Source of the DNA: Candidatus Altimarinota bacterium
GTDB lineage: Bacteria; Patescibacteriota; Gracilibacteria; Absconditabacterales; Absconditicoccaceae
Length of the DNA stretch: 64,000 nt
NCBI GenBank assembly: GCA_021734475.1
Contig: JAIPIU010000007.1
Span: 1 to 64,000 of the forward strand
Direction of reading: 5' to 3'
Positions 32,019 to 35,532 of this stretch are shown in pieces. Positions within the stretch are counted from its first letter, which is position 1; every line of letters starts with the position of its first letter. A program made the translations under genes and the position numbers. The notes under the pieces are model-generated. The model saw only the letters and a list, made by a program, of their open reading frames with translations, was not told the origin of the DNA and did no database searches.

Positions 32019-32405
32019 ATGAAAGAAAATACATGAATTATTATAATTTGAATAATAATATGACTCATAATATGATATCTAATAGCAAAAATATATTTTC
32101 AAATAAAAATCAAATGACAAAGACAAGAAGCAGTATCTAGATCTCGTTCCGTTGTTCTATGAAATGTAAACGAAAAAATAGCTCCTCTACTACCAAATTT
32201 CCCTTATTATTACAAAGATCTTACTTTTGTATGAAAATGAATAGACTATATAGTTTTCGACTGATTATCCTCATGAAATCTAAAACAAATAGTATTCTTG
32301 GAAATCAAAAGTTGAACTTCAAATCTCAATAGAAATGAAAGAATGATCCAAGAATGTATAAAAAGCTGAAGAACAAAATATAGTATCTATAGATTAGAAA
32401 AATAA
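32019..32405 (+). CDS. Membrane-anchored Holliday-junction-resolvase-like endonuclease
   Basis: This 128-aa protein has an N-terminal membrane helix (residues about 6-28), then the Endonuc_Holl (PF10107) core. The core reads LLPNFPYYYKDLTFVGKGID, then YIVFDGL and QIVFLEIKSGTSNLNRNERM. The D in GIDYIVFD and the ExK in LEIKSG match the PD-(D/E)xK active site. The family is described as Holliday-junction-resolvase-related, but its real role is unproven. It ends 1 base before the convergent VanW gene's stop codon. Confidence 0.85.
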
Positions 32406-33518
32406 TTATCTTATAGCGTTACTTTTGTAACTATAAGTAGATTCAAAAGTTTGGCTTGTTAATAAGTTTCAATAGTTTAGATCATAAACTTTTTTTTCTA
32501 ATATAGCAGATAAATTTCATACCTGTTTTTTACTTATATTAACTTTTTTTTCTGGTTCTTTAGATAATATAGCTATAAAATAACTATAATCTCACTTATT
32601 CATAACTTTAAAGTAAATATTTTTTTTGGAATTATTTTTTATTTCAAACTGTTTGGTGTTTTGATAAATAGCAGCATCATCTCAATAAATATAATCAGAA
32701 TAATAAGCTGTAAGCCAAACACTATGTCATGATCTTTTTAATATCTCCATATCTGGATTTAATAAAGATGATCTAAAAAGCTGACTAGCAAATCAACATA
32801 CACCTCCGTAAAACATCAAATTTTGAGGTCAAGATCACTTACAATATCATGGAAGATAAGAAATATGATCATTTAGATTAAATATATTTCAGGGAGCTAA
32901 CACATAGTTATCAAGGCTATTTAATGCTACTTTATAGTTTTGTTTAGTACAAGGTTTAAGTAAACTAATATTTTTAGATACAACATAAAAAGACATTTTT
33001 TTAAAGTTTTCATACATAATATAGGTTTTAGGTACTAATATATAAGTCCCCCTATCATATAATTTTATCAGAAATAATTTTTGAATATTATCTATATCAA
33101 ATATTGATTTATAATTTTTAAAAAAGGGATTCGCTGATTTATATTCAAATTTAGTTTTAGTTTCATCATAAGAATCATCAAATCAAACCACTTCAGGCCA
33201 AATATTCTCAATAACTAGATTTTCATCAATATAAGGTAATTCTCTGTTTAATAAACATAATGGAGAAAGTAAATAACTATTACCCCTTTCTTTATATACA
33301 CATTTCTCATTTTTCAAAGATAGCATTTGAGTAAACAAAGATCTATTAGAAAGCTCTTGATCACTATCAGATATATGATTAATTATTTTTGTATATTCTC
33401 ATCGATGAATAAAATCATCAAAACTATCTGAAGCTAACGAAAATGAAAAATATAGACTAAACAAGAAAATAGATAATATAAATTTAAATCATAAATTTTT
33501 TGATAGATAAGCTTTCAT
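32406..33518 (-). CDS. Secreted VanW-family protein
   Basis: The 370-aa protein has a signal peptide (residues about 10-30, ending SLA). Its C-terminal half is VanW-like: NYVLAPGNIFNLNDHISYLP, then FYGGVCGFASQLFRSSLLNP, EILKRSGHSVW and YGDDAAIY. These mirror the VanW boxes F(S)FN, GGVCQVSTTLYNA, ERHPHS and G-x-DA. VanW proteins are found in cell-wall operons and vancomycin clusters, but their reaction is unknown. GGVCQ is GGVCG here. It lies opposite and downstream of the structured RNA. Confidence 0.8.
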
Positions 33519-33622
33519 TATCAAGTATATTTTTATTATATTCTAAAAACAAAAACTCACAATAAATTATAGATTAATTTTAAATTTTGTCAAATCTTTA
33601 TATAAAGCAAAGTATATATAAT

Positions 33623-33650
33623 TTGTTTTTTATATGTTTGAAAATATAAT
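33623..33650 (+). promoter_or_regulatory. Likely promoter of the structured RNA
   Basis: TTGTTT (33623-33628) and a perfect TATAAT (33645-33650) are 16 bases apart and point at the start of the structured RNA around 33657. Confidence 0.6.
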
Positions 33651-33656
33651 TATATT

Positions 33657-33888
33657 AACATAGTTACTTATTGTGATCCTACTACACTTAGGTAGTTATG
33701 TTGGAGGTATTCCTCCTTAAATACTATCTAGATCTTTTACCCCAAAAGATCAGATAGAAACTTGGAGAGTGCCGGATGTTTATTATACAATCCATAGGAA
33801 ATACAAAAAAATGTATTTAAATCGGTTGTATGAAACCGACTCTGGCACTTTCCGACCTTAAACTAGAGGTATTCCCCTAGTTTTTTTT
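33657..33888 (+). ncRNA. Unidentified structured noncoding RNA, about 230 nt
   Basis: The segment lies in an intergenic gap, has its own promoter-like sequence and ends in a terminator. Stems are GGAGG/CCTCC (33703-33716), a 14- to 15-bp hairpin at 33724-33757 (one mismatch), and a four-way junction. The junction is closed by GGAGAGTGCC (33764-33773) with GGCACTTTCC (33844-33853). It encloses three small hairpins: GGAT/ATCC, AAATACA/TGTATTT and TCGGTT/AACCGA. No protein-like frame runs through it. I looked for tmRNA, RNase P, SRP, 6S and tRNA signatures and found none. It may be a lineage-specific housekeeping or regulatory RNA. Confidence 0.65.
33861..33888 (+). terminator. Terminator of the structured RNA, inside the gltX 3' end
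   Basis: AACTAG-x-GG pairs with CC-x-CTAGTT and runs into eight T residues. The hairpin includes the gltX stop codon (33877-33879) on the opposite strand, so the RNA gene and gltX overlap tail to tail. Confidence 0.8.
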
Positions 33889-35532
33889 ATATTTTAATCT
33901 ATTAATTACTCTTTCTTTACCCATTACTCTCATTACGGAGAATAGATCTGGAGTTTGACTAGCACAACAAAGTTGTATTCTCAAAAACATAGCTAAATCT
34001 CAGATTTTTCAAATATATCATCATTCTTTAAATTCAGCATTATTTCAAGCAAATCAGTATTTTTTTCATATTTGTTTCAATTGAACAAACCAATCTTCAA
34101 TAGACATATCCAGATCCAAAACACTTGCATACTCACTTATAAATTTCCCAATCCAATCATCATTAAATATTTCTGGCAAATCTGGTTTATTTACAAAAAG
34201 CTTTTCTCGTTCACTGTCATAAAAAAATATAATCTGACTCTCGACATCTTTAAAAGTTGTAAATCTTTTTGGGTCTTTTGGAGTATGTCTCTCTATATTT
34301 ATAGCAGCTTTTGTATAATCTACATCAGATATCATTAATTTTGCAAAATCTGGACTATATTTATAAGCTCGTTCCAATGTCTTTTCATAAAGTTCATCTG
34401 TAGATATTCTAGATATATAGTTGTTACATACACTATTGAGTTTGATAAAATCAAACAAAGCTCAAGCATGATTCATATTCTCCAATGTAAATTTGAATTC
34501 AAATAATTCCTTATCTATATTTTCATTCCTCCAGTTTTCGAAACTAGAATCCATAATTGTCAAAAGATATTCCATCAATCATTTTGTAGGAAATCATTGT
34601 TCAAAAAAATATTTCATATTAGCTTCTGGATCATATCTTTTACTCAGTTTTCTCTTATTTCAGTTATCTAATTTCAATAATGGTGCTATATGAGCATAAA
34701 ATGGTATTCTTAACCCAAAAGCTTCAAAAAGCTGTATATGTAATGGCACTGAAGTTAGCCACTCTTCTCATCTGATAACATGTGTAGTTTTCATCAAAGT
34801 ATCATCTGCTACATGTGCAAGATGATATGTAGGCAATCAATCTTTTTTTAACAAAACTACATCATTATAATTATCAGCCATATTAATTTTTCACTTTATT
34901 ATATCATCAAAATTAATTTTTTTATGTAAATCTCAATGTGAACGTAATCTTAATACTGGAAAGAATCACGATTCATCTTGAATCTTTTTCATTAATTCAT
35001 CAGGAGTTTTATTTCTCCAGACAGAATAATTTCAATAAATACCAGGTATAAGTTTTGCCTTTGTTTGATTTTCTCTTATTACTGCTAATTCTTCTTCTGT
35101 CATTCGACAAGGATAAGCCAATCATTTTTCAACCAAATATTTAGCAAATACATTATAAATATATTTTCTCTTTGATTGAACATATGGTCAATATTTACCA
35201 ACATCTTGCATATTTTCGCCAATTGGTCACTCATCCAAAATTATATTAAATCATTTTAGAACCTCTAAAATAACATCTATAGCTCATTCTACCTCTCTTT
35301 TCTGATCTGTATCTTCTATCCTTATAAAAAAGACTCCATTATTTTGTTTACTATATTTCCACGAAGTAAATGCTTGATAAAAGTTTCCTATATGCATAAA
35401 TCATGTTGGACTAGGTCCCATACGACTTACTACAGGATTTAATTCTCTATCTGGGTATTTTTTCAAAAGATCTTCTATAGTTTCTTTCACATCAGGAAAC
35501 ATAATATTAGCAACCTCTTTTCGTGTAGACAT
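33877..35532 (-). CDS. gltX: Glutamyl-tRNA synthetase
   Basis: GluRS (551 aa) charges tRNA-Glu. PSPTGFMHIGN is the class I HIGH region and KRKLSKRYD is the KMSKS equivalent. FIRIEDTDQKRE and THVIRGEEWL are further GlxRS signatures. The C-terminal anticodon-binding part extends to about residue 551 and includes DIE-rich helices. No separate glutaminyl synthetase is visible, so a tRNA-dependent amidation route is possible. The 3' end lies in the terminator of the facing structured RNA. Confidence 0.95.

Follow-up and report, generated by a model that had tools for sequence, protein, structure and literature searches.

The window analysed here is a stretch of 64,000 nt from a host genome of 1.17 Mb in 8 contigs, whose genes are open when TGA is read as glycine (code 25). 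Between a VanW-domain gene and a GltX-type tRNA synthetase gene, in the gap named by a sequence-only reading of this DNA, lies a free-standing RNA gene of ~230 nt (Table 1). The GltX frame (code 25) terminates within the terminator hairpin of the RNA on the opposite strand (33877-33883), so these bases are common to two convergent genes. On the other side, the minus strand carries a perfect sigma-70 consensus (12/12 matches, TTGACA-16-TATAAT, 33566-33593) just upstream of the VanW-domain gene and divergent from the RNA. A short gene for an Endonuc_Holl (PF10107) protein (32019-32405, plus strand) is convergent with the VanW-domain gene, and an Endonuc_Holl-related gene also precedes the RNA in two relatives from g1 and two from g21. 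The six window neighbours of the RNA that we tested comprise tRNA synthetases, VanW, NusA, a Holliday-junction-resolvase-like protein and an AIRS protein.

Table 1. Features of the RNA locus (positions in the window; paired, share of alignment cells that pair; double-changed, base pairs with both sides changed)
Feature	Position	Strand	Details
VanW-domain gene	32406-33524	-	left flank of the RNA gap
Promoter of the RNA	33622-33650	+	-35 TTTGTT/TTGTTT; -10 TATAAT at 33645-33650; TTGTTT-16-TATAAT spans 33623-33650
RNA gene	33657-33888	+	~230 nt; in the gap between the VanW-domain gene and gltX
P1 hairpin domain	33657-33702	+	stem 33657-33670/33689-33702; inner loop 33671-33688 with conserved CUACAC stretch
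P2 hairpin	33703-33716	+	GGAGG-UAUU-CCUCC; 99.4% paired; 5/5 pairs double-changed
P3 hairpin	33724-33757	+	one-base bulge; loop 33739-33743 in conserved UACC context; 91.2% paired; 14/14 double-changed
P4 domain	33762-33855	+	outer stem 33762-33776/33841-33855 around P4a and P4b; 96.1% paired; 13/13 double-changed
Strand X	33785-33792	+	AUACAAUC; complements Y (33824-33831); X-Y pairing excludes P4b
P4a apical hairpin	33799-33818	+	length variable in relatives; 76.6% paired; 9/9 double-changed
P4b hairpin	33822-33839	+	UCGGUU-GUAUGA-AACCGA; 97.3% paired; 6/6 double-changed
Intrinsic terminator of the RNA	33860-33888	+	hairpin 33860-33883 running into T8 (33881-33888)
GltX-type tRNA synthetase gene	33877-35532	-	right flank; convergent with the RNA gene

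Both transcription signals that had been proposed for the RNA, the promoter TTGTTT-16-TATAAT and the T-run terminator, are present. A -10 element with at least five of six matches is located just 5' of the RNA in 33 of 34 members (compared to 14% of 3000 random places), and TTG occurs in the -35 region of 31 of the 34, a count made without random-place control. A terminator-like hairpin within 90 nt of the RNA is kept in 29/34 members (12% of random places); in five (L082, L057, L060, L084, L063) none was found within that distance. A generic promoter and terminator scan of the window picked up neither the promoter of the RNA (TTGTTT has 3/6 matches) nor its terminator, and the promoter-like sites it reported are at chance level (16 observed, 17.0 expected); the case for both signals thus rests on their conservation. 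The loop of the terminator hairpin is often P2-like (e.g. 33868-33875): one scan found G[T/C]AT in 13 of 22 terminators of the RNA. Among other terminator-like hairpins of these loci it was present in 3 of 19, and among those of the window in 2 of 9, a set that includes the RNA's own. As the compared rows are related, this enrichment is only suggestive.

Comparing 31 loci, we found that the genes flanking the RNA are mostly common only within genera and differ between most genera. A convergent gltX homologue is located 3' of the RNA in 6 loci (g1, g19, g21), and in nine g14 loci a related same-strand gene follows, starting 481-1158 nt from the start of the RNA; conservation of such a downstream gene was seen within g14 only, not across genera and not in the window. 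No closed sense ORF above 27 codons was found in the RNA of the 11 members checked. Since the RNA gene is kept together with its promoter and terminator while its neighbours change, it most likely acts in trans.

Fold and covariation

The RNA has a folding energy of -82.3 kcal/mol, compared to -43.4 +/- 4.3 kcal/mol for 200 dinucleotide shuffles (z -8.96, with 0 shuffles as low). It is built of four consecutive hairpin domains, P1 to P4, the first two of which abut directly with zero linker. No overall stem closes this row, and therefore the RNA has no four-way junction. In place of the four-way junction and the closed multi-branch region that had been read from the sequence we thus find hairpin domains in a row, and the only branching that the data support is a possible three-way junction within P4. 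The larger part of that reading, an independent structured RNA of about 230 nt at 33657-33888, is borne out by the folding energy, the covariation described below and the conserved promoter and terminator.

Alignment of related loci, which had been proposed as a check, revealed very strong compensatory change. In an unfitted MAFFT alignment, 25 of the 54 predicted pairs have both sides changed in at least one sequence; in the fitted alignment of 34 members, 52 of the 54 pairs are double-changed and 94.5% of 1780 cells are standard pairs. The two helices of P1 (94.7% and 92.6% paired) show double changes at 11 of 13 pairs. Across the 34 members we counted 442 double-changed cells, compared to 111 in shuffles, and the observed value of each of the five measures used is reached in 0 of 500 shuffles. 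A fitted alignment of 29 members agrees (94.6% of cells paired), and in a control in which the partners were slid by 1-3 columns pairing falls to 35-49%. Fitted alignments lean towards their own structure and related rows inflate shuffle-based counts, but effects this large across 16 genera are not explained by alignment bias and kinship. On the evidence of the alignments, the fold consisting of P1, P2, P3, P4 and the terminator is therefore shown to be under strong selection. Among the pairs of all members, G-U cells are far more frequent than A-C cells (180 vs 16), which identifies the RNA as the product of the plus strand. Four sequences (L077, L034, L044, L085) and three opposite-strand matches were dropped ahead of the alignment for R2.

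The stems vary freely among members around loops that are nearly constant. CAC in the inner loop of P1 is found in 34/34 members (CACA in 27/34, the host's own not among them) and ACC in the loop region of P3 in 33/34; the loop region of P2 reads GUAUUC or GUAUUUC in 24/34, and GUAUGA is present in the P4b loop of 17/34. Constant loops on variable stems resemble loops that either bind proteins or base-pair with targets.

The P4b hairpin is well kept (Table 1), yet it is disfavoured by energy in most members: with the P4 region of each member folded alone, the probability of P4b is below 0.15 in 23 of the 31 members having the element, and 0.46-0.95 in the other 8. In those 23 members, and likewise in the host, the 5' arm of P4b pairs mainly upstream, with strand X just 5' of P4a. 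The complementarity of X and Y is better than with permuted partners: in a test on 10 genus representatives, 6 of 2000 permutations scored as low (25/29 members), the short-P4 rows L066, L067, L072 and L076 having been left out of this test. Of the cells in the X-Y columns, 78.2% are paired, compared to 69.3% in shuffles; covariation scores 0.228 (shuffles 0.125), above all slid controls. Three of the five measures of the column test exceed the shuffles and two do not, with a weak spot at one column pair where 14 of 27 cells are unpaired. A covariation scan for pseudoknots or extra helices (columns filled in >70% of sequences) gave nothing notable beyond P4a extended into the 5' arm of P4b as the leading extra helix; two further weak candidates score 0.08 or less. 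In g19 members P4 is short and forms a compact three-way junction without a bubble, and the hairpin form prevails. On this moderate evidence we propose an alternative X-Y pairing of P4 that is not expected in short-P4 members. The simplest reading of P4 is then a switch or a migrating junction, and it may switch in the cell. In one locus (L034:5824-6141, minus strand; the same RNA as L085, g14) ~100 extra bases form additional stems within P4, while P1-P3 are almost unchanged.

Distribution and comparison with known RNAs

A DNA search detected clear homologues in the host genus (88-89% identity) and fragments in other genera; at E <= 1 it matched 55 of 59 genomes, almost all of these matches being due to chance, and 12 places reach E < 1e-5, the last of them in a genome (G017) that the covariance models leave unmatched. 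The P2-P3 core pattern occurs in 23 stretches of the species-genome collection, 15 of which are the RNA; the other 8 (L037, L040, L041, L045, L047, L049, L050, L052) looked like chance matches on inspection by eye. With a first covariance model (15 sequences), 21 of 59 genomes were matched at E <= 0.01, all within the 36 of them that belong to the host's GTDB family and none among the 23 others, and within the family 30 of 49 at E <= 0.001. The second model (29 sequences) recovered the RNA in 27 of the 33 listed family genomes and in 0 of 159 other genomes of the class. A third model (34 sequences) found the RNA in 30 of 40 family genomes and 16 of 22 genera, in 21 of the 23 good genomes (completeness >=90%, contamination <=5%), and across the phylum in 1 of 286 genomes, this one being the host. 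The searches with the first two models and that of the phylum were run with stricter filters and evaluated few candidates in each genome (8 in the phylum search), so that distant relatives could have been lost; the E-values of the covariance models are rough (short calibration). The RNA occurs at one place per genome, as second matches in 5 genomes fall on the opposite strand of the same place. Carriers include genomes named candidate division SR1 bacterium, Candidatus Absconditabacteria bacterium, Candidatus Gracilibacteria bacterium and Patescibacteria group bacterium. Matches to G006 (E 2.5e-6) and G012 (E 9.4e-6) are weak, and the ten of 40 family genomes without a third-model match (G009, G010, G017, G019, G021, G026, G028, G029, G034, G065) include all six genomes of g18 and g20 as well as two good genomes (G010, G026), reflecting either divergence or loss. 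A single match in viral contigs was examined by eye and viral carriage was rejected, because the flanking elements are absent there. As far as searched, the RNA family thus appears to be confined to the host's family within Absconditabacteria (SR1).

The sequence-only reading recognized no common RNA signature, and comparison with Rfam 15, another check that it had proposed, agrees. In the window no family reached its gathering score, and permissive searches (of the region at E <= 10, of 14 whole loci comprising the host's and those of 13 relatives, and of two diverged members) gave scattered weak families, none of them recurring. The strongest is the trpB motif in L069 (E 0.015, 30.7 bits, cut-off 59), followed by mir-3688 in L087 (E 0.061) and the nqrA-II motif in L072 (E 0.087, 33.6 vs 55 bits), all on P4 with or without the terminator. 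For the housekeeping RNAs, each family was searched in 36 genomes. The RNA is not a tmRNA (RF00023), the host's own lying elsewhere (G000:C8:10879-11340, 69.3 bits, cut-off 47), and ARAGORN found no tmRNA in the window; nor is it RNase P RNA (RF00010), whose match in the host also lies elsewhere (G000:C3:280915-281255, E 2.3e-30, 95.9 bits, cut-off 100). CPR RNase P RNAs scoring under the Rfam cut-off are reported in PMC8172020.

6S RNA (RF00013) is similar in that it is a free-standing gene of similar size, and P4 can resemble the 6S anatomy of a rod with a 3'-strand hairpin in its bubble. However, the new RNA has three further hairpin domains, its bubble in P4 is not universal, and instead of a single rod with one large central bubble we observed four consecutive domains, with a bubble-less P4 in g19. 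RF00013 matches neither the RNA nor any other place in the host, which leaves the host's own 6S unaccounted for. Candidates just below the cut-off of 46.4 bits (G003:C34:3240-3391, L030, 41.2 bits; G006:C6:43560-43703, L029, 44.3 bits) are perhaps the 6S RNAs of this family, and they sit apart from the new RNA in those genomes. Bacterial SRP RNA shares the size range and the housekeeping-like distribution, but the new RNA matches neither of its models (RF00169, RF01854), and in the 25 genomes searched (16 of the family including the host, 9 of the class) the RNA-binding M domain of Ffh was not found (PF02978, SRP_SPB; controls 14/14). SRP RNA itself was found in 0 of 36 genomes by RF00169 (E <= 0.001) and in 0 of 36 by RF01854 (E <= 1). 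The host and its relatives thus seem to live without SRP, having neither SRP RNA nor an Ffh M domain that we could find. Loss of SRP is in itself not new: according to PMC8080830, Vampirococcus and numerous further CPR bacteria lack two SRP subunits.

The suggestion that the RNA might be a divergent housekeeping RNA is hence weakened for tmRNA, RNase P, 6S and SRP RNA, given the candidates elsewhere and the failure to find the Ffh M domain, and the second suggestion, a new class, gains support from the absence from Rfam together with the covariation. The kind of evidence resembles that for the orphan structured RNAs of comparative-genomics surveys (e.g. PMC11109978, PMC6429828), which also show covariation, are lineage-restricted and have no known function; in the two main texts none of the terms Absconditabacteria, SR1, Gracilibacteria, Patescibacteria or candidate phyla was found. 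The RNA was absent among the literature matches listed, in which coverage of subscription papers is thin, so that its absence from print is unproven.

Interpretation of the RNA

The novelty would lie at the level of the RNA family, which is supported by P1-P4 that covary and by the lack of a match to catalogued families. A conserved shape without a catalogued match points to a probably undescribed part of the cells' basic machinery, and with a -10 and a terminator of its own, a single place per genome, survival of genome reduction and constant loops, a ribonucleoprotein (RNP) scaffold is its most likely role. We therefore think it probable, though far from certain, that 33657-33888 encodes a new RNA family with its own promoter and terminator and a selected fold, which scaffolds a housekeeping-type RNP in trans. 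The covarying stems would position the near-constant loops CUACAC (P1), GUAUU (P2), UACC (P3) and often GUAUGA (P4b), and a protein would read them. P4 would be the moving part of the RNP, alternating between a rod in which strand X is paired to the 5' arm of P4b, the energetically preferred state in most members, and an open state with P4b formed and X released, which binding of a partner could bring about. More tentatively, and with a confidence well below even, one may picture the core of an undescribed, lineage-defining RNP of the Absconditabacteria, whose partner flips P4 from the rod to P4b and thereby exposes the GUAU loop together with X. Loops of the GUAU type, present in P2, in P4b and often in the terminator hairpin, would then be repeated sites for the same protein.

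The main rival is a base-pairing regulatory sRNA whose constant loops UACC and CUACAC are mRNA seeds that the stems merely present. The most constant unpaired parts of the RNA are indeed loops (ACC of P3, CAC of P1) and could equally be target-pairing seeds. Nevertheless, four large covarying domains kept across a family would, in our judgement, be unusual for such an sRNA, and no clear rRNA target emerged: antisense 8-mers to E. coli 16S/23S are common to at most 10 of 34 members and 9-mers to at most 8 of 34 (the shuffle control being uninformative owing to related rows). The reverse complement of part of the 16S sequence lies in P2, but we regard an anti-16S pairing as coincidence, because the best 16S 8-mer occurs in 9 of 34 members only and the stem of P2 varies freely. 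We consider the sRNA rather unlikely. By analogy, the open P4, a bubble rod with a 3'-strand hairpin, could also mark a 6S-like regulator of RNA polymerase, as P4b lies on the 3' strand facing an AU-rich 5' strand and the bubble can close; the missing RF00013 match, the separate 6S candidates in G003 and G006 and the bubble-less P4 of g19 make this improbable.

With a terminator behind a structured RNA, the locus has the usual layout of an element acting in cis on a neighbouring gene (leader, attenuator or riboswitch), and both the nine g14 loci with a same-strand gene and the five members in which no terminator was found within 90 nt are in line with such a role. Yet gltX is convergent in the window, the neighbours differ between most genera and 29 of 34 members have a terminator, and thus we judge a cis element to be very improbable. 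Even less can be said for a divergent form of a known housekeeping RNA, above all the missing SRP RNA. Its slot seemed open, none having been found in the host or the sampled relatives, but as PF02978 was found in 0 of 25 genomes, an SRP RNA would have no partner to bind. Moreover, the typical SRP helix-8 sequence was not seen in the new RNA, and the host has its tmRNA (G000:C8) and its RNase P RNA (G000:C3) at other places. To a guide RNA of a CRISPR system or transposon (tracr, scout or omega type) we give the least credence of all, even though PMC8080830 describes type V systems in Vampirococcus (an absconditabacterium) and other CPR: the RNA occupies one place per genome in 16 of 22 genera, in differing gene contexts, and the six neighbours tested in the window are those named above.

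Large, strongly conserved bacterial RNAs without known relatives are uncommon, and several of them have proved to be ribozymes or RNP cores. The RNA described here, for which we favour the role of an RNP scaffold, is retained by most of a family of bacteria that have small genomes and an altered genetic code, and as it is kept despite genome reduction, it probably does something that the cell cannot easily drop. With the alignment, the model and the map of promoter and terminator, the RNA becomes testable in cultured members and can be found in metatranscriptomes.
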